In this document: positions 3,586-31,507 of the stretch, piece by piece | How positions within the stretch are numbered: position 1 is the first letter of the stretch | How the letters are laid out: each line of letters begins with the position of its first letter | IMG/VR virus record: IMGVR_UViG_3300027970_000012 | Span: 27,445 to 91,444 of that record | DNA: 64,000 nt | Source of the DNA: a virus | Strand: one strand, 5' to 3' | Translations under genes and position numbers: made by a program | The notes under the pieces: model-generated | Databases searched by the model: none | Told to the model about the DNA's origin: nothing | What the model saw: the letters and a program-made list of their open reading frames with translations, nothing else

Positions 3586-3797
3586 AACAACAATACCTCT
3601 TCTTTTTTGTATGAAAATGCCCAGTAATCATCCGTATCCTCATTATAATATACTTTAACTCCATCTCCTAACTCATTAACTAGAGAATTTATTTTAGTTA
3701 CTTCTATCTCATTCTCAAATTGATAAAAATTGCCAATTACGACTTCCATATCTTCTGAATGCTTTTGGAGTTCTTCAATTAGTGCCTTGAGTTTCAT
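3579..3797 (-). CDS. Small acidic hypothetical protein (72 aa)
   Basis: A 72-residue protein starting MKLKALIEELQKHSEDMEVVI. This is an opening I associate with small phage and bacterial proteins that begin with a helix followed by a beta-rich part. It is acidic in the middle (YYNEDTDDYW) and ends LLLW. Its stop codon overlaps the ATG of the frameshifted gene downstream, consistent with translational coupling. No function can be assigned. Confidence 0.6.
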   Translation of the reverse strand: MKLKALIEELQKHSEDMEVVIGNFYQFENEIEVTKINSLVNELGDGVKVYYNEDTDDYWAFSYKKEEVLLLW

Positions 3798-3809
3798 TCA
3801 TATTTCCTT

Positions 3810-4175
3810 CTAATGCTTTTTGTTGAAGCTTGAATGATGGTTCCATATATATTTCTTAAATCTATCTACTATACCCTGACGAACATACCTATCCAGAAGA
3901 ACAGAGCCGCAATTTGGAGGCATTTCACCCAAAGTATTTTCATAATGATGAACAAATAGAGGTTTCCAATGTAGATGATGTTGCATTAAAGCCTCTTTAT
4001 TTACTTTAATTTTATACTCTAATTCTGGAATTAAGCCATCATTTACGAGGCTACGTTCCTCAATCTGAATCGCATCGACATCGTCAAAAATATTATATCA
4101 TGGTATATGAATACCTTCTTTATCTAACTGCTCTTTAACGGAGTCACTAATGTAGAAGTCTTGATATAGAGTCAT
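3810..4175 (-). pseudogene. Hypothetical gene with in-frame TGA
   Basis: A 122-codon frame from ATG at 4173-4175 to TAG at 3810-3812 reads well throughout (MTLYQDFYISDSVKEQL..., ending KKYIWNHHSSFNKKH) except that codon 26 (4098-4100) is TGA. The context IP-stop-YNIF would suit tryptophan (TGG to TGA). Many other genes here end in TGA, so a recoded genetic code is unlikely. It is either a recent pseudogene, a sequencing error, or a readthrough site. No family recognised. Confidence 0.55.
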
Positions 4176-4215
4176 TTTACTTACACTAAAATTAAATTAT
4201 ATAGAAAGAAGTATA

Positions 4216-4914
4216 TTATGTCAAGTGATTGAGGTTGATAAATGACAACACATCCTCAATTGGTAAAATATCAGTAAGATGTTCGGTCATTCCCCGACCC
4301 ATGCTCATTTCAGTTAATGGTGACTTGTATTGAGAAAACTCCTTCAAAACTTTCTTTTCTAAATTCCATATATCTATAGATTTTCCTGACCACTCTCCAA
4401 TAAGCTCAGACGTTTCCTTTTTACGATATAGCCAACCTTTATATGACCTACCTATTTTATAATTACCATTGTGAAGTTTTATAAAGTAAAGTTTATCTGG
4501 TCTCTCATTATCTTTTGGTCTCTGAAATCCAGACCAAGGTTGCCCATTAGCTGTTATTCTTTTTCTTGCTTGGGAATACTTCTCAAGTGTTTCCTTACTA
4601 TATGGAGTTGAATTTTTTACTCCTTCGGGTCTCCCACCAACTCCAGGACACTTTTTACCCTTGTTCCAGGGTGATTTTTGGTGAGCAGGATTATTTTTTC
4701 CAAGTTTTGCCTTTCTACCACAACAAGTTTTACTGGTCTTCATACCGCAAACTAGTATTTCTCGTTCACCAGAACATTCACAATATACCTTTATCCTTTC
4801 TCTTTTTGTATGAGTTCTATTTTCGCCCCTATATTCCAATTTCCTATTTTCACAAAGCTTATTTAGTATATCAAATGTGTAAGTTCCTTTCATAAAACTC
4901 TCATAAGTTTCCAC
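4216..4914 (-). CDS. Free-standing GIY-YIG-like homing endonuclease
   Basis: A 232-residue protein directly downstream of psbA. The N-terminal half has a cysteine cluster (VYCECSGE..., then CCGRKAKLGK) and a NUMOD3-like NNPAHQKSPWNKGKK stretch. The C-terminal half resembles the T5orf172/MUG113 branch of GIY-YIG nucleases: LYFIKLHNGNYKIGRS, a downstream arginine, a glutamate in NLEKKVLKEF and a G-TE motif near the end. The listed start is GTG (4912-4914). An ATG at 4891-4893 is likelier, because the TATAAATA promoter at 4918-4925 would put the transcript start near the GTG. In cyanophage S-PM2 the free-standing endonuclease gene F-CphI lies in the same position after an intron-bearing psbA; the analogy is positional only. 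Confidence 0.65.
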   Translation of the reverse strand: METYESFMKGTYTFDILNKLCENRKLEYRGENRTHTKRERIKVYCECSGEREILVCGMKTSKTCCGRKAKLGKNNPAHQKSPWNKGKKCPGVGGRPEGVKNSTPYSKETLEKYSQARKRITANGQPWSGFQRPKDNERPDKLYFIKLHNGNYKIGRSYKGWLYRKKETSELIGEWSGKSIDIWNLEKKVLKEFSQYKSPLTEMSMGRGMTEHLTDILPIEDVLSFINLNHLT

Positions 4915-4957: not shown

Positions 4958-7131
4958 TTACCCAATTGCTGGAGCAGTAAGGGCAATAGAGGTTTCCTTG
5001 GTCATAGCAAGGTCTAAAGGAAAATTATGGGCATTCTTATATTTCTTTAGGTTTCTGGTATTACTACCAGGATTGGACTATATCATCATCATTTCTGATG
5101 CCGGACGCTTAAACCTGTTATTAAGAAAACTATATTCCTCAGGTAGTCTCTGAACCTTTCTTAGATGTATCTAAGACTTGGCTGCTGATTACCCACTTAG
5201 GGTTTCCAGCAATTCATCCGATTTAAAGAGCGCAATACCCAAATCTACGCTCGTGCATAACTTCCAGTCCCAAGTTTGCCCGATTAAGAACATCAGCCCA
5301 GGTATTAATAACGCGGCCCTGATGGTCTAAAATACTCTGATTGAAATTTAGTCCGTTCAAATTGAACCCAGACATAAAAATACCAGCAGCGGCAAACCAT
5401 ATCCCGATGACAGGTAGAGCAGCCATTACAAAATGCAGTGAACGACTATTGTTAAACGATGCATATTGAAACAATAATCTCCCCAGATATCCATGTGCGG
5501 AAACTAAATTATAAGTTTCCTGCTCCTGTCCGAACTTATAACCATAGTTCTGGCTCTCATTCTCTGTTGTTTCTCTAACAAGAGAGCTAGTGACCAATGA
5601 ACCATGAACTGAACTGACCAGGGCTCCCCCGAATACACCAATAACTCCAAGTTGATGAAACGGATTCATAAGAATATTATGTTCAGCCTGAACACTTTAC
5701 CCAAACTTTCGTAAGGGAGTGGACTATATCATCACCCCATAATGGGGGCAGGGCGCTTATTCTGGTTATTAAGAGGACTAAACCTCTCCAGTAGTCTCTG
5801 AACCTTTTGGAGGTGTACCTCCAACTTGGATGCTGATTTCCATATTATATTGTTCTTTTAAAAATTGAATAAATTGTTCTTTTGTATTATTACCATACCC
5901 ATATTTATTGTGAAATTCTTTATGAATTTGCTTTGTTAAAAGAATTCCATTAGTAATATCATATCTTAAATCTGGATATGCGTTCCAACCATATAAATGG
6001 TGGACCACTAAATCTTTTTTAGACCCGGTGACGCAACAATAACGTCCAACTCTTTTCCTGACGGCGTTTATCCAAATATAATAATCTGTTGAGGGATTAT
6101 GAAAATCTCTACTTAATGTACCTTTGAAAGCTGGGTGATGTTTTCCATATACACCTTTCAAAGAACCTTTTCGCCCAGTTGCCTTTTTACTTAATTTTTG
6201 TCTAGTTTGTACAGAAACAAATTTATTAGTATGCAATTCAGAAATTCTTTTCTTTTTGCAATGTGGGCAACCTGTTTTAGGTGAGTTTTTATAAGACGCT
6301 AAAGATGTTTCAAATTCATTATTACAAGTAAAACAAAGAAACTTTATTTTACTTTTAACGCAAGTATACCCGTCCATAGAAATTAATTTATGATTTCTAG
6401 ATTCGGCAATATTTTGAATATGCTCAAAAGAAAGTGGTTTACTCATTTAATATCATACTAACATATTTTATTTATATTAGCACAATATTGAAAGACTGCA
6501 AATATAACTTAGGGTTCCAGCAGTTCACCCTATTTAGCCAAGGAAATTACTTTCCAGGAGTGCCTCAAACTGACACTAACATAAAATTAAATTGACCAGA
6601 AATTCCTAGAGGAAATCCATCAGAAAACGAACCTTGTGAAATAGGATAGGCTAGAAAAATTGCAGTTGCAGCAGCTACGGGAGCAGAATATGCAACAAAA
6701 ATAAATGGACGCATTCCCAATCGGTATGATAATTCCCATTCACGACCCATATAAGCATAAATGGCAATCATAAAATGGAAAACAATGAGCTGATATTCAC
6801 CACCATTATAAAGCCATTCATCAAGAGACTGTGCTTCCCAGATTGGATATAGATGCAATCCAATAGCATTGGAACTAGGAATTATGGATGCTGTAATTAT
6901 ATTATTTCCATACATTAAAGAGCCAGAGACCGCCTCCCTAATACCATCCAAATCAGTTGGTGGTGCGGCAATGAACCCCAAAATAAAGCAAGTAGTAGCA
7001 ACTAAAGCTGTCGGAATCATCAGAACTCCAAACCAACCGATATACAATCTATTATCAGTTGAGGTTATCCAGGAACAAAATCGTTCCCAGAGATTTTCGC
7101 CAGAACGGCGTGTAGCAATTGTAGAAGTCAT
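4958..7131 (-). CDS. psbA: Photosystem II D1 protein, split by two group I introns
   Basis: D1 is the reaction-centre protein of photosystem II; cyanophages carry it to keep photosynthesis running in infected cells. Predicted exons are 7131-6573, 5692-5247 and 5035-4958: 559 + 446 + 78 = 1083 nt, exactly 360 codons plus TAA, the normal D1 length. Hallmarks include the QGSFSDG segment with Mn ligand Asp170, AEH (Glu189, Tyr-Z partner His190) just after intron 1, the VRETTE loop segment, VMHER (His332, Glu333) ending exon 2 and [10 protein letters not shown] (His337, Asp342, processing site after Ala344) in exon 3. The protein has one extra N-terminal residue relative to the canonical numbering. 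A TATAAATA promoter lies 140 bases upstream and a hairpin terminator follows. Confidence 0.95.
5036..5246 (-). other. Group I intron 2 of psbA (211 nt, no ORF)
   Basis: The 5' exon ends in T (CGT, 5247) and the intron ends in G (5036), as group I splicing needs. The conserved core is visible on the minus strand: a P-like AATTGCTGGAAACCC, a Q-like AATCAGCAGC, an exact R element GGTTCAGAGACTACC (5142-5156) and S element GATATAGTCC (5075-5084). It interrupts between the Arg334 and Asn335 codons in phase 0. I recall that cyanophage S-PM2 psbA has a group I intron of about the same length (212 nt). Without splicing, translation reads seven extra codons and stops at 5223. Confidence 0.92.
5693..6572 (-). 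other. Group I intron 1 of psbA (880 nt, contains HNH gene)
   Basis: The 5' exon ends GTGT (last base 6573) and the intron ends in G (5693), giving a phase-1 join inside the codon for D1 Phe186. Core elements match intron 2: CTGCTGGAACCC at the P position (around 6515), AATCAGCATCC for Q, GGTTCAGAGACTAC for R (5791-5804) and GATATAGTCC for S (5721-5730). The HNH gene 5778-6446 fills the loop between the P and Q/R parts. The last about 100 nt resemble the end of intron 2 closely (CTTAATAAC...AAGCG...GATGATATAGTCC), so the introns are probably siblings. Confidence 0.92.
5778..6446 (-). CDS. Intron-encoded HNH homing endonuclease
   Basis: A 222-residue protein inside psbA intron 1, predicted to cut intron-less psbA and spread the intron. 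The N-terminal part has two CxxC pairs ([10 protein letters not shown], then GCPHCKKKR) likely to bind zinc. A NUMOD3-like segment [17 protein letters not shown] follows. The C-terminal HNH core has [15 protein letters not shown], then [15 protein letters not shown] and [17 protein letters not shown]. Its last codons (GSETTGEV) are written in the intron R element, so the stop codon lies within the ribozyme core. The start is the ATG preceding SKPLSF. Confidence 0.88.
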   Translation of the reverse strand: MSKPLSFEHIQNIAESRNHKLISMDGYTCVKSKIKFLCFTCNNEFETSLASYKNSPKTGCPHCKKKRISELHTNKFVSVQTRQKLSKKATGRKGSLKGVYGKHHPAFKGTLSRDFHNPSTDYYIWINAVRKRVGRYCCVTGSKKDLVVHHLYGWNAYPDLRYDITNGILLTKQIHKEFHNKYGYGNNTKEQFIQFLKEQYNMEISIQVGGTPPKGSETTGEV

Positions 7132-26963: not shown

Positions 26964-28211
26964 TTATCCCATATAAAATTCGGACGAAACATCTCCATAC
27001 TCATCTAAATTCCATACTTCCATCGGCATATTTTCTGTATTCGCCATCATCCAAACATCTCCAGTTTCTTTTTCAACTGTAATTTCATCATCATTCTCTA
27101 ATCCAGTATTAATAAATCCAAATGGAGCCATATCTTGTTCAATCTGCTCCTTCTGTTCAAGATACATTCTCTTACGAATGTCATTGTTGGTAATTTCTTT
27201 GAAGTATTCCTGAACAACTAACCAAGAGAAAATTACGATACACATACAAAGGTCATCATTCGTTCCAATTTCAGCTTGATATGAATTATTTTTGGATATG
27301 AATGTAGTTAACTCACTAATAATATCAAAGTCTTCAATGATAAGTTTATTGTCCTCAATGATGGTTTTCATATTAGAACAACCCACTCTCTTTACTTGCT
27401 TGGACATTTTGATTCCTAACTGTGAGGTCTTACCCGAAAATCCTTGTCCAACTAATTGTCCAGCTCTACCTCTCATAGAACACATTAGAAGATTTTCATA
27501 CTCAAGTTCATATTGTAAGTCTTTGGCTACTTGGTCTCCTACACTTGCGATTTCAATGAGAACATAAGCTTTGTTATATGAATTTGCTACCTTATAAATG
27601 ATATCTGGAAGAAGTAGTGGCTTAAGTTCATTATTTTTATACTTTGCAACAATCTTGTATGGAATATTTGTGATGTCGTATATGATGAATGCGTGATAAT
27701 CCTTACCCGTTCCTTCTGAAACGTCCACAGTCATAATGTAATTGTGTTCCTCTATAGGAGGTTCATACACATCAAGTCCTTCAGACCGAGTAATTGGGTC
27801 GTTGTATATTAGGTTTTGTAGTTTTGATGAGGTAATGAGCGTATCAACAGAACCTAGGAAACTACAGTTGTGTGATACTATATTGTTAGAATAATAAAGA
27901 TGGTCTTCTCCAGAGTTGACAATATCAAATAATTCTACTTCTTTCTTAATGGTTCGGTATGATTTGAGAAATGTTCCACCATTCTTGGTAAAAACTTCTG
28001 TTGTCTTATTTAAATTCTTAGCTTTGACAATACCATCTATTGTAGAGAGTGGATGGTCCAAAGAGCACTTGAGTTCATTTCCGTCTTCAAATATTAAATG
28101 AATATATTTGTTCTTCTTAATCTTATTGACGCCCAGAAAAGATTGAAATCCATTTGGAGTTGAGATTTTAATCTTTTTATGATTTAATACTATGGTTTCT
28201 GGAAGCTTCAT
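26964..28211 (-). CDS. 17: Terminase large subunit gp17, C-terminal part with split intein C-half
   Basis: A 415-residue protein. Residues 1-115 are the C-terminal half of a split intein ending SHN. Residues 116-415, beginning CSFLGSVDTLITSSKL, are the gp17 nuclease (RNase H-fold) half. Features of the latter include NYIMTVDVSEGTGKDYHAF (metal-binding Asp), VLIEIASVGDQVAKDL and a late NDDLCMCIVIFSWLV with a further acidic metal ligand. Trans-splicing to the product of 28328-31507 is needed for a complete terminase. The start codon has no strong ribosome site. The two genes are in the same orientation, separated by 116 bases. Confidence 0.92.
   Translation of the reverse strand: MKLPETIVLNHKKIKISTPNGFQSFLGVNKIKKNKYIHLIFEDGNELKCSLDHPLSTIDGIVKAKNLNKTTEVFTKNGGTFLKSYRTIKKEVELFDIVNSGEDHLYYSNNIVSHNCSFLGSVDTLITSSKLQNLIYNDPITRSEGLDVYEPPIEEHNYIMTVDVSEGTGKDYHAFIIYDITNIPYKIVAKYKNNELKPLLLPDIIYKVANSYNKAYVLIEIASVGDQVAKDLQYELEYENLLMCSMRGRAGQLVGQGFSGKTSQLGIKMSKQVKRVGCSNMKTIIEDNKLIIEDFDIISELTTFISKNNSYQAEIGTNDDLCMCIVIFSWLVVQEYFKEITNNDIRKRMYLEQKEQIEQDMAPFGFINTGLENDDEITVEKETGDVWMMANTENMPMEVWNLDEYGDVSSEFYMG
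27867..28211 (-). other. Split intein, C-terminal half (IntC, 115 aa)
   Basis: Begins MKLPETIVLNHKKIKISTPN, includes a block-B-like LKCSLDHPLS and ends with ELFDIVNSGEDHLYY... and the splice motif VSHN followed by Cys+1. The segment IKISTPNGFQSFLGVNKIKK closely resembles the IntC of the AceL-TerL split intein as I remember it. That intein is split after only about 25 residues. The large size of IntC relative to IntN marks an atypical split site. Confidence 0.88.
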
Positions 28212-28236
28212 TCAGTTAGGAACTTTATACATCTAT

Positions 28237-28356
28237 TTAATGTTTCTTGTTTATATGAGTTCTGGTCTTAAATCCATATTTTTCTGCTATTTGTTGATGA
28301 GTCATATTTAGATTATGATAATCAAATTCAATCTGTTCCTTGGTTGGATAGTTCAT
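28237..28356 (-). pseudogene. Homing endonuclease remnant between intein halves
   Basis: A 39-codon frame from ATG (28354-28356) to TAA (28237-28239), overlapping the 3' end of the first gp17 gene in another frame. It reads MNYPTKEQIEFDYHNLN then MTHQQIAEKYGFKTRTHI, the N-terminal helix-turn-helix of free-standing phage homing endonucleases. The nuclease domain is absent. Known fractured genes with split inteins often have an endonuclease gene between the halves, so this looks like its eroded stub. Confidence 0.65.
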
Positions 28357-31300
28357 TATAAAGTTCACCTATGGTGGTTTCAACTACAATACCATTAACC
28401 ATTATATTTATCAAGGTTTCAGGTAGGAACGATTCAAATTCCTGATTCCATTGCTCTAAGCTCGTATTTGCGATACTTTGCTGCTTAAATTTCTCGTCTC
28501 TACCTGGAACCTCACTCCAATGAACCTCAGTTGGAACATATTCATTCTTACCACGTATGGCGTCATTCCAAAATCTATAAAAGGTATTCATTCCTTTAGG
28601 GGTTTGGTGGCCTAAAAAGTTGTTGTATAATACCGAGTGCGCCCAAGAATCATCAGCAATATCGGGTAGAGAAACATCAAAAACTTCATTCTCACTTAAT
28701 TTAATATCTTTAATTTCTAACCAAATCATATTTTCGTTCACATTATCATCAAAGAATCTTTTAATATTTTCATTAGAGCATAACTCTTCTTTATTTTCTA
28801 ATAGAAGTTGTCTAGAATAATTTTTAAATTCCTTATGCCTTCTTCCCAATGAAGGCATTCCATTTTCAGCTAGAATTACTGCAGAATTTGGAATAATATC
28901 GGTTCTACTTCCAACTCTAGTTGAAGCTTTCAATAGATTGATTCTTTCTAATTTTCTTGGTAGAGAGAACCCAATTTGAGAGAAATATTCAAATGCATAT
29001 TTACCGACTATTTCAATATCAAAATGAGTTGAACTAACTTTAACTCTTTCTGAAGGTCCAGAAGTAGCTATATAAATGCTACCTAGTATGCCCATATTAG
29101 CTAATAATAATTGAACTTGACGAATTAACTCTCTTGAAGTTGAAGTATATTTAACTCTTCCTTTATTATCAATACCTCCATCACCATCAAACATCCCTCT
29201 TAATAGAGCTGTAATGTTAGATTTAGACCAGGACAACACTTTATCTGGCAGTGTTTTTACTCCAGCTTTATTTGTAATATCAAATCCTAGTTCTTTAAGA
29301 AAATCTACAAGTTGCTTTGAATTGATGACATAATGTACATCATCAATCTTTTTATATGGAACATTTAGAGTATTCAAACAATATGAAATATCGTCACCAC
29401 AACTGATTACAATTTGTCCACCAGTAATATTGTGAGTATTCTTGGATACACAGTCTCGCGCATATCCCTCTGCAACATAAAGCCCGACAAAATATGCAAT
29501 GTCTTCAGTTATATAATCACAACAAAATGTGTCAATACATTTTCCCTGTTCTGGATGAAATCCGATGTAATCTTCATTTCCAAAAACTTGATGATTATAT
29601 TTTATGGCTAAATAATCGCCTACTTTTAGATGTTTACTCTCTACGTAATTATACTCATTGTTGTGAAACGCCCAAAGTTTATGAGTTTGAGAGCATTCTA
29701 ATGTTTCATACCGAGTGGTTATAATATTTGTAGAAGAAGCTTGATGATTAACAATAATATCACTGGTATAGAACTTATTCTTACCCATTACAGTATACTC
29801 TGGAACTTGATAAGCACCTGTTTTGGAGATATCAATAAGCCTCTCAATTTTTCTGTATCCTTTATTTGTAAGAAGATAGGTATCTTTTGATACACAAGAA
29901 ACCATAATTACCTTGGTGTACTTACCAGAAGTAATCGTAGGATATACAGAACTAAAAAACTCGTCTGCAATTTGATTCGGAATGAACGCAAATTCGTCCA
30001 GGAAGATTACATTATATGAACCTCCTCGGACGGCAGAACCAGAAGTAGAAGATGCAATAATTTTTGAACCATTGTCCAGTTCTAGAGAAGCCTTATTCCA
30101 AATCTTAACTCCATGTTGCATCCATTTGGGTAGATTCTCATAGGCAAGCTTTAGTCTACCTAAAATATCTTTTGCAGTTTGAGCTTTGTTAGCTAGAATG
30201 GCGACATTAACATTATCATTGAATATGATATAGTGAAGTAGATATGAGATAGCTGTAGTCGTATTATGAGTAGGAATGAATGTTCTTCCACATAGAAATA
30301 AGTGAGTTTCACTATCTACTTGAATACACGCTACAGGAACACTCTCCACTTTTTCTATATTTTGTATATAATGTCTGGTATTCTGTGGCCTACTTTTTCT
30401 CTCAAAATTTATTAAATTTAATTTTCTTGGAAGATTGAAAATACACTCCTTACTAGCAAATCTGATGGTATAGTACCAACATTGATTAATGAGTCTTCTA
30501 CTTACTCTAGACTTTATTCCTAATGTAGCTAATAGTTCAACAACCTGAAGAATAAGCTCATAATTTTTTTGATAAAATTCAAATGATTGAGTTTTTGTAA
30601 TTGACCCATCAGAATCCATCAGTCCTCTCAACAATTCCAATCTCTGGTCTACTGATGCTCGTAGATATTCTTGAGGAATATGTTTATTTTTCAATAAACT
30701 ATTTTCTTCCAATTCTTTATTTAACCCACGACACTTGAACCGAATACAATTCTTATAGACTGTCTCCTGTTCAACATCAATTTTAGTTTTATAAAATTCA
30801 TAATCATCTTTATGGGCAACGATTCTCCCCTCGTGAGACGAACCATCACCTAACCAAAGACCAAGAAGATATGGGTCTATTGGTAAATCTTTGGGAGTTC
30901 CGACCATTGGTTTGGAGCATTCAATATAAAATGCGCCAGCCACACCTTTTCCTCTTTTGTTGTTGGCTTTTTCAGAGTATCTTAAATACATTTCATTTGT
31001 ATTGATAACTCTCTTTCCAGCAGTCCAATAAGAACTATTTACTTCCCACAGATGTTCTGCATCGGCAATAATTTCTTCACCATTATCAAAGTATATTTTA
31101 TAACATTGATGATTTAACATCGTTTCTGTTTTAAATGTTACAGAAACTGGATTCCCATTTGGAGCAAGTACCCTATCTCCGACCTGGATATCCCCAATTG
31201 TAGTCCATCCTTCAGGAGTTGGTATTGGAGTATCTAACGATAATGGCTTACCAACCTGGCGTGGTAATTTACAAATATTGAATCTATGTTGATGAAACTT

Positions 31301-31507
31301 CTTAATGAGTTTCTCTTGAAACTTATATAATTTAAATGGAATGAGACCTTCATCAAGGCTCACAATTTTAATATAATTTCTTGCAAAATATACTGGGTCC
31401 TTCTTACACTTAATGAACTCCTGAATATTTTCTGCAGTGAATTCAATGGATATATTTGCTCTCTTTAGAAGAGGATTACCAGAGTAAATTTCATTGGCGG
31501 CAGCCAT
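28328..31507 (-). CDS. 17: Terminase large subunit gp17, N-terminal part with two inteins and IntN
   Basis: A 1059-residue precursor of the DNA-packaging ATPase. Extein segments are residues 1-87 (ending in the Walker A start LPRQVGK), 416-537 (TTTAISYLLHYI, Walker B VIFLDEFAF) and 969-1025 (TPKGMNTFYRFW, ending QWNQEFE). Insertions are intein 1 (88-415), intein 2 (538-968) and the N-half of a split intein (1026-1059). With the 300 extein residues of the second gene, the spliced protein would be 566 residues, the normal size of cyanophage gp17. None of the packaging activity can exist before splicing, since intein 1 divides the ATP-binding loop. Confidence 0.94.
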   Translation of the reverse strand: MAAANEIYSGNPLLKRANISIEFTAENIQEFIKCKKDPVYFARNYIKIVSLDEGLIPFKLYKFQEKLIKKFHQHRFNICKLPRQVGKPLSLDTPIPTPEGWTTIGDIQVGDRVLAPNGNPVSVTFKTETMLNHQCYKIYFDNGEEIIADAEHLWEVNSSYWTAGKRVINTNEMYLRYSEKANNKRGKGVAGAFYIECSKPMVGTPKDLPIDPYLLGLWLGDGSSHEGRIVAHKDDYEFYKTKIDVEQETVYKNCIRFKCRGLNKELEENSLLKNKHIPQEYLRASVDQRLELLRGLMDSDGSITKTQSFEFYQKNYELILQVVELLATLGIKSRVSRRLINQCWYYTIRFASKECIFNLPRKLNLINFERKSRPQNTRHYIQNIEKVESVPVACIQVDSETHLFLCGRTFIPTHNTTTAISYLLHYIIFNDNVNVAILANKAQTAKDILGRLKLAYENLPKWMQHGVKIWNKASLELDNGSKIIASSTSGSAVRGGSYNVIFLDEFAFIPNQIADEFFSSVYPTITSGKYTKVIMVSCVSKDTYLLTNKGYRKIERLIDISKTGAYQVPEYTVMGKNKFYTSDIIVNHQASSTNIITTRYETLECSQTHKLWAFHNNEYNYVESKHLKVGDYLAIKYNHQVFGNEDYIGFHPEQGKCIDTFCCDYITEDIAYFVGLYVAEGYARDCVSKNTHNITGGQIVISCGDDISYCLNTLNVPYKKIDDVHYVINSKQLVDFLKELGFDITNKAGVKTLPDKVLSWSKSNITALLRGMFDGDGGIDNKGRVKYTSTSRELIRQVQLLLANMGILGSIYIATSGPSERVKVSSTHFDIEIVGKYAFEYFSQIGFSLPRKLERINLLKASTRVGSRTDIIPNSAVILAENGMPSLGRRHKEFKNYSRQLLLENKEELCSNENIKRFFDDNVNENMIWLEIKDIKLSENEVFDVSLPDIADDSWAHSVLYNNFLGHQTPKGMNTFYRFWNDAIRGKNEYVPTEVHWSEVPGRDEKFKQQSIANTSLEQWNQEFESFLPETLINIMVNGIVVETTIGELYNELSNQGTD
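28331..28432 (-). other. Split intein, N-terminal half (IntN, 34 aa)
   Basis: The last 34 residues of the first gp17 gene, SFLPETLINIMVNGIVVETT followed by IGELYNELS, have the block A layout of an intein: residue 1, then T-I, a G turn and IGELY. The first residue is Ser, not Cys, and follows the extein ending QEFE, which in relatives continues directly with C-x-FLGS. The Ser1 / Cys+1 pairing matches what I recall for GOS-TerL. Confidence 0.85.
28604..29896 (-). other. Class 1 intein 2 in gp17 (431 aa, LAGLIDADG)
   Basis: Starts CVSKDTYLLTNKGYRKIERL after extein KVIMVS and ends FLGHQ before TPKGMN (Thr+1). The terminal residue is Gln rather than the usual Asn, known in a minority of inteins. 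A block B histidine lies in SQTHKLW. Two LAGLIDADG helices, FVGLYVAEG (about 136-144) and LLRGMFDGDG (231-240), show a full homing endonuclease. It is inserted just after the ATPase strand following the Walker B region. Confidence 0.92.
30263..31246 (-). other. Class 3 intein 1 at gp17 Walker A (328 aa, LAGLIDADG)
   Basis: Inserted between LPRQVGK and TTTAIS, splitting the phosphate-binding loop. The first residue is Pro, which cannot start the standard reaction. The class 3 W-C-T signature is present instead: Trp67 in ADAEHLW (block B), Cys307 in VPVACIQVD (block F) and Thr326 in PTHN (block G). Two LAGLIDADG helices (LLGLWLGDG about 127-135 and LLRGLMDSDG 205-214) indicate an endonuclease. 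It ends THN with Thr+1. Confidence 0.92.

Follow-up and report, generated by a model that had tools for sequence, protein, structure and literature searches.

Three inteins of three kinds in the predicted large terminase of a T4-like environmental phage, and exchange of inteins at its Walker A site

We describe here an intein-rich large terminase gene in a window of 64,000 nucleotides, positions 27445-91444 of the 91,444-base virus record IMGVR_UViG_3300027970_000012 (G000:C1). The gene encodes gp17 (TerL) of a T4-like environmental phage and consists of two adjacent minus-strand open reading frames (ORFs), carrying inserts whose sequences identify them as a class 3 intein, a class 1 intein and an atypically split intein. 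We show how this locus is built, which catalytic residues its inserts retain, how the inserts came together and how alleles have been exchanged at one of the insertion sites. From these residues, their conservation and the phage's need for gp17 we infer splicing, such that gp17 is very probably made from two precursors through two cis and one trans splicing reactions, with the inserts being mobile parasites. The features of the locus are given below in window coordinates, with lengths in amino acids (aa) and with IntN and IntC denoting the N- and C-terminal parts of the split intein.

28328-31507, minus strand: gp17 ORF 1 (ATPase part), 1059 aa
26964-28211, minus strand: gp17 ORF 2 (nuclease part), 415 aa
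31247..31507, minus strand: extein 1, gp17 residues 1-87, ending in Walker A ..PRQVGK; T4 gp17 86-167 (3ezk)
30263..31246, minus strand: intein 1, predicted class 3, 328 aa, cis, at Walker A; 6bs8/6rix, PF14528
29897..30262, minus strand: extein 2, 122 aa, Walker B region, ending in ..KVIMVS; T4 gp17 167-285, PF03237
28604..29896, minus strand: intein 2, predicted class 1, 431 aa, cis, at motif III; TIGR01445, PF14890, PF14528
28433..28603, minus strand: extein 3, 57 aa, TPKG..QEFE; T4 gp17 287-321
28331..28432, minus strand: IntN of the split intein, 34 aa, with Ser1; stop codon at 28328-28330; orthologues in loci L050 and L191
28212..28356, minus strand: relic of a free-standing homing endonuclease gene; DNA alignment to the intact gene of L050
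27867..28211, minus strand: IntC of the split intein, 115 aa; 6dsl_B CatC E = 7e-20, alignment of six IntC
26967..27866, minus strand: extein 4, 300 aa, nuclease domain; stop codon at 26964-26966; PF17289 Terminase_6C 4.2e-15, 3c6a 2.8e-44

The original prediction had described two insertions of 328 and 431 aa together with a gene break flanked by intein halves, and both its coordinates and its arithmetic are correct: cutting out the three inserts (328, 431 and 34+115 aa) leaves 87+122+57+300 = 566 aa. With slashes marking the borders, the junctions read QVGK/PLSLDT..PTHN/TTT at Walker A (junction 1), IMVS/CVSKDT..LGHQ/TPKG at motif III (junction 2) and EFE/SFLPET..VSHN/CSFL at the gene break (junction 3). 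Exteins 1-4 align in order with the T4 gp17 structure 3ezk (residues 86-167, 167-285, 287-321 and 351-566), as expected for the 566-residue spliced protein that had been proposed. In T4 numbering the inserts lie at K166/T167 (site A), 286/287 (site B) and ~353/354 (site C), the last of these just before the nuclease domain. The exteins carry the ATPase (PF03237) and RNase H-like nuclease (PF17289) of a T4-type gp17 large terminase and match structures 3ezk, 3cpe and 3c6a. Relatives in which all three sites are empty (e.g. L040, L044, L053) have an uninterrupted gp17, with exactly 0 bp between the flanking extein segments at each site, so that the insert borders are not guesses. The matches of the inserts, taken with their junctions, were confirmed to lie far beyond what chance would be expected to produce; joining the exteins at these junctions restores gp17 without interruption and every catalytic residue is in place, so that neither circumstance named in advance as fatal to the interpretation was encountered.

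Searches with each insertion returned the expected intein kinds, namely the class 3 structures 6bs8/6rix for insert 1, intein and LAGLIDADG_3 models for insert 2 and CatC (6dsl_B) for insert 3, and all three inserts carry the sequence hallmarks of the classes originally named for them. Pfam and NCBIfam intein models alone were too insensitive, with Intein_splicing below cut-off and only weak Hint matches to intein 1. At site A, between the Lys and Thr of Walker A, intein 1 aligns with the class 3 DnaB inteins 6bs8/6rix in the PDB from residue 2 to the last residue (E about 1e-27), and its block B His/Trp, block F Cys and THN end correspond to H65, W67, C118/C124 and T137/T143 of these structures. 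The WCT triad, defined as block B Trp, block F Cys and block G Thr (PMC7664689; PMC6195587), is found in intein 1 as block B Trp with His (HLW), block F Cys (VACIQVD) and block G Thr (PTHN), and residue 1 is Pro, neither a Cys nor a Ser nucleophile. Together these residues support a class 3 label, for which the class 3 order of splicing is predicted. Intein 1 also contains a LAGLIDADG endonuclease domain (PF14528) with both motifs (LGLWLGDG, LRGLMDSDG), and the ratio of nonsynonymous to synonymous substitution rates (dN/dS, by the Nei-Gojobori method, for which several dS values are near saturation) is about 0.10-0.17.

Intein 2 carries the class 1 residues C1, S69-H72 (SxxH block B), D407, H420 (block F), H430 and Thr+1, which are invariant in an alignment of four site B homologues. 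Its matches include models of the intein N-terminal region and LAGLIDADG_3 (TIGR01445, PF14890, PF14528), with TIGR01445 reaching 23.7 bits (cut-off 24.5), and its LAGLIDADG domain bears the motifs VGLYVAEG and LRGMFDGDG; its dN/dS is 0.11. The element is missing from L050 and L191, which implies either a gain on the branch leading to the window or a loss in these two relatives.

The gene break at site C is flanked by the halves of a split intein, which match the consensus atypical split intein CatC (6dsl_B) with E = 3.5e-19. Atypically split TerL inteins have an IntN of about 25-37 aa and an IntC of about 104-115 aa (PMC11766414); here a terminase host carries an IntN of 34 aa in gene 1 and an IntC of 115 aa in gene 2, together with the rare Ser1/Cys+1 pair (EFE/S...HN/C), both of which are traits of the GOS-TerL type. 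An alignment of six IntC sequences reveals a CSLDH block B, the block F Asp and His, and an SHN end before Cys+1. These features support assignment to the GOS-TerL type, for which trans-splicing is predicted. Orthologous IntN segments occupy the same site in L050 (59% identity) and L191 (67%), while IntC is 85% identical to that of L050, compared with 82% for extein 4 and 82-84% for the exteins overall; dN/dS is about 0.04 for IntC and 0.29 for the short IntN. A scenario in which trans-splicing is dead, with the ATPase and nuclease working as two separate proteins and the split intein surviving as a relic, would fit the position of the break between two known gp17 domains (T4 353/354) and the death of the accompanying endonuclease gene. 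This we regard as quite improbable, given an IntC conserved like the exteins, catalytic residues all kept on both halves, and an IntN kept at the same place in L050 and L191.

The endonuclease gene itself can be traced through L050, the nearest relative (84% extein identity), which has the same split intein and, between its halves, an intact 378-aa gene (3688-4824) with a DUF559 nuclease domain above cut-off. The 116-bp gap between the window genes aligns with both ends of this gene, 967 bp of which have been deleted (L050 3811-4777). What is left is a 5' end within a 39-aa ORF (28237-28356; deletion point about 28255-28260) and a 3' end formed by the last ~40 bp of the endonuclease gene, running into the IntC start codon. 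An intact endonuclease gene lies between split halves in L050 (site C) and L006 (site A), whereas in the window only its two ends do so. Since the endonuclease gene has been deleted, the site C element no longer homes by itself, and despite this loss the gp17 gene stays split and would still depend on trans-splicing. A similar endonuclease-less state, with an insert of 487 bp, was found in L191.

Taken together, these features suggest a route by which gp17 would be made as two precursor polypeptides, the first being the ATPase domain (1059 aa). The class 3 intein at Walker A would be excised through its own block F cysteine, joining K87 to T, and the class 1 intein at motif III through its own Cys1, joining S to T. 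Chain 1 ends with the 34-aa IntN, which would bind the 115-aa IntC that begins chain 2, and trans-splicing through Ser1 and Cys+1 would join E to C, uniting ATPase and nuclease into a 566-aa motor subunit. The inserts would be mobile parasites rather than phage tools, the site C split intein being the older one, common to L050 and deprived of its own mobility by the internal endonuclease deletion, and the Walker A class 3 intein a later arrival from another phage lineage.

Several observations weigh against this account of splicing. Intein 2 ends in Gln (HQ/T) and not in the C-terminal Asn of class 1; a Gln terminus is found in every related site B intein, and class 1 is still the best label because Gln-ending inteins are known. 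The Pro1 of intein 1 is shared only with L189 in our sample, other members having Ala, Ser or Met at this position, and the same Ser1/Cys+1 pair that is present in the split intein inactivates its close homologue AceL-TerL (PMC11766414). AlphaFold modelled the first precursor with low confidence (predicted local distance difference test score, pLDDT, 60; predicted template modelling score, pTM, 0.38), and the model was set aside. Finally, splicing itself is predicted from sequence. The origin of the window in a metagenome-derived record, along with the unusual Pro1, could suggest that at least one insert no longer splices, that the phage is defective or that the locus is an assembly artefact. 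We consider this extremely unlikely: frames are open, relatives are similar and the locus is under purifying selection, a dead insert would be lethal in an essential gene, and L006, from another sample, has inteins 2 and 3 at the corresponding locus as well. Assembly artefact in particular is ruled out by a second contig, L049 (10461 bp), which is 100% identical to the window over its full length.

Phylogenetic comparison indicates that the inserts have different histories. In the extein tree the window groups with L050 (100/98), whereas in the intein 1 tree it groups with L003, L007, L009, L017 and L022 (100/99), and neither grouping survived an approximately unbiased (AU) test against the data behind the other tree (p = 0.001 and p = 9e-52). 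Given this conflict, and a split intein that follows its host, the site C insert is the older and the site A insert came from elsewhere; the trees place the origin of the window's class 3 intein in another phage lineage, arrival by homing being the presumed route. All compared segments are under purifying selection, with dN/dS about 0.04-0.17 where dS is not saturated.

Further evidence of mobility comes from L006, a contig from another sample that is identical to the window at 4483/4484 bp (99.98%) from just upstream of extein 2 onwards and shares inteins 2 and 3 with it. The Walker A insertion point is exactly that of the window, but L006 carries there a split intein in place of the class 3 intein, with a 39-aa IntN (CCAILTK start), a 115-aa IntC (SHN end) and, between the halves, an intact 345-aa endonuclease gene with a DUF559 domain; its gp17 is therefore encoded in three genes. 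In the last 22 bp before the Walker A junction the two alleles differ at 8 positions, all silent, and the 107 bp upstream of this tract are identical. Such a short silent tract beside a mobile insert is a footprint like that of co-conversion in homing, which would be the likely mechanism. The window tract (CCACGCCAGGTTGGTAAG) is identical in L017, a carrier of the class 3 intein, is absent from all split and empty alleles sampled and looks like that of a class 3 donor; for the L006 tract there was no clear source among the sampled alleles. A comparable pattern was found in a near-identical pair comprising L255 (class 3) and L090/L249 (split), with 6 differences within 22 bp of the junction and 1 in the next 38, and L247/L250 form a class 3/empty pair at site A. 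The swapping of inserts among close relatives shows that mobile elements are still competing for a single vital gene. It seems fairly likely that, in one phage species, either two polypeptides (with class 3, class 1 and one split intein) or three (with two different split inteins and class 1, as in L006) make up the motor, as mechanistically unrelated inteins with unrelated endonucleases replace each other at the same Walker A codon boundary. If so, each motor subunit of the three-gene form would require one cis event and two trans-splicing events that do not interfere with each other. Among other closely related phages, L089/L090 and L088/L195/L197, occupancy differs at site A (split, empty or class 3) and at site C (with or without the split intein), and the polymorphism is therefore not confined to the window's species.

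In a set of loci gathered with intein-containing queries, and hence biased towards occupied sites, 91 representatives had all three sites resolved. All sites were empty in 14 of the 91, the remainder carrying one, two or three inserts; many loci in this set have a class 3 or split intein at site A and many a split one at site C, site B being rarely occupied. The three-kind architecture of the window is not unique to its phage, since L187 and L189 carry the same three kinds of intein. In L189 the site A element is a class 3 mini-intein located three codons upstream of site A, the endonuclease domain of the class 1 intein is apparently degenerate and the split intein has an intact endonuclease gene; the L187 contig stops after IntN. 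These two loci fall in a separate starred clade (99/98) from the window, and on parsimony triple occupancy therefore arose at least twice. Three inteins in other mixtures occur in L006, L212 and L149 (divergent, lower-quality). The distribution also bears on the idea that the inserts are retained for regulating the motor through delayed splicing, forming an AND gate for late or conditional packaging. Each junction does cut a functional part (Walker A, the coupling motif III, the domain boundary), and redox-sensitive splicing of a P-loop class 3 intein has been documented in M. smegmatis DnaB (PMC6195587), but in close relatives these sites are empty or hold other inserts, and an endonuclease-driven history accounts for the presence of the inserts without benefit, leaving such regulation very improbable as the reason for their retention.

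A further claim, that three intein kinds in one protein were unreported, holds with a qualification: we found no account in the openly licensed literature of a single protein with class 3, class 1 and split inteins, or of a site at which class 3 and split inteins are alternative alleles, but pairwise precedents exist. Trichodesmium erythraeum DnaE, which Liu and Yang are said to have described in 2003, reportedly has two cis inteins and one split intein, requiring two cis events and one trans event; unlike gp17 it is reportedly a cellular polymerase in which all inteins are class 1 and the split site is canonical. Fractured genes, in which split intein halves surround a free-standing endonuclease gene, were reportedly described by Dassa et al. 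in 2009. This arrangement is intact in L050 and L006 and decayed in the window, where, unlike in fractured genes, one such unit stands beside two cis inteins, while L006 has two units in one gene. M. smegmatis DnaB resembles the window gp17 in carrying, within one ATPase, a class 3 intein at Walker A (DnaBi1, 6bs8, to which intein 1 is homologous) and a class 1 intein further on (DnaBi2) (PMC6195587). It differs in being a bacterial helicase encoded by one gene, with no split intein. Pairwise combinations are thus already known, as in M. smegmatis DnaB and cyanobacterial DnaE.

Among terminases, GOS-TerL, AceL-TerL and CatC (6dsl) share with the window the host protein, a site before CxFLGS, a short IntN and an IntC of ~105-115 aa, and GOS-TerL also has the Ser1/Cys+1 pair, with lengths of 37/115 aa (PMC11766414). 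In contrast to GOS-TerL and AceL-TerL, the window's split intein has two cis inteins of other kinds beside it in the host protein, and its gene gap holds a decayed endonuclease gene. In mycobacteriophages, according to part of a published survey (PMC5050341), terminases carry class 1 and class 3 inteins at several insertion sites, making the terminase ATPase an intein hot spot there as in the window; that part of the text covers classes 1 and 3 and makes no mention of a split intein or of three inteins per terminase. Haloarchaeal MCM likewise has several mobile inteins competing in one gene, at four neighbouring sites, but all are cis and no split inteins are described (PMC10643990).

If spliced as predicted, one essential viral motor subunit would rely on three splicing reactions of three kinds. 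The window/L006 allele pair offers a way to test how class 3 and split inteins compete at a single site, whether cross-splicing is avoided when a protein holds two split inteins, and what becomes of a fractured gene after the death of its endonuclease. Such loci also provide protein engineering, in which orthogonal pairs are in demand, with inteins that occur together naturally. They are a warning, too, that in viral metagenomes a terminase gene can easily be overlooked or wrongly called as two or three fragments.

A PDB search with the endonucleases gave no significant match, and the very weak match of the L050 protein to the mobile intron protein 3r3p (E = 0.36) serves as a lead only. In L149 (2752-3783) the gene between the site C halves encodes a different, HNH-looking endonuclease (motif VDHKISVYWGFKNG), and unrelated endonucleases therefore appear to serve the same split site. 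In the cultured Vibrio phage 1.244.A (MG592609.1, 628-3778; L182), gp17 is divided at site C between two genes, whose annotation goes no further than coil-containing and terminase-like proteins, and the IntN forms an in-frame fusion with a domain bearing a GIY-YIG-like motif (YRHTNTVNGKQYVGIT). In L106 (5640-7850) the gp17 reading frame runs open through the site A insert for 443 codons, and another frame of the same DNA (5965-6879) encodes a 304-aa endonuclease, such that an endonuclease gene is nested out of frame within an unsplit intein; the site A inserts of L107, L109 and L118 are similarly open.

Additional insertion sites were also observed. Sequence resembling an intein C-half marks an extra site in extein 2 near Walker B in L069 (6676-7312), L070 (1131-1767) and L212 (4375-5488). 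In Vibrio phage vB_VmeM-32 (KU160494.1, 1102-3216; L180), gp17 starts with an IntC at site A, the IntN half of which was not found upstream within the stretch examined, and a further mini-intein lies at Walker B (VDE/CVSGD..ESHN/CAFIE).

Other genes in the same phage record, all on the minus strand and outside the window, are also interrupted. The UvsX/RecA-like recombinase (G000:C1:20707-22164; L176 3208-4665) has a mini-intein at Walker A (GTGK/CARGSEK..IYHHN/TWFAL) without an endonuclease domain. The ribonucleotide reductase large subunit gene (G000:C1:8130-11575; L175 130-3575) is intein-split, with junctions MSNL/CVSGDTKIEV.. in the N part and MLKIEHLEN..ILIHN/CTEITLL in the C part, its halves being separated by a 117-aa ORF of unknown kind. 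The DnaB-like helicase (gp41; G000:C1:18238-20157; L176 739-2658) is encoded by two genes with intein halves (..DVSE/CIYVNEK.. and ..GILTKN/SFGTMM..), making gp41 a third protein of the window phage predicted to need trans-splicing.
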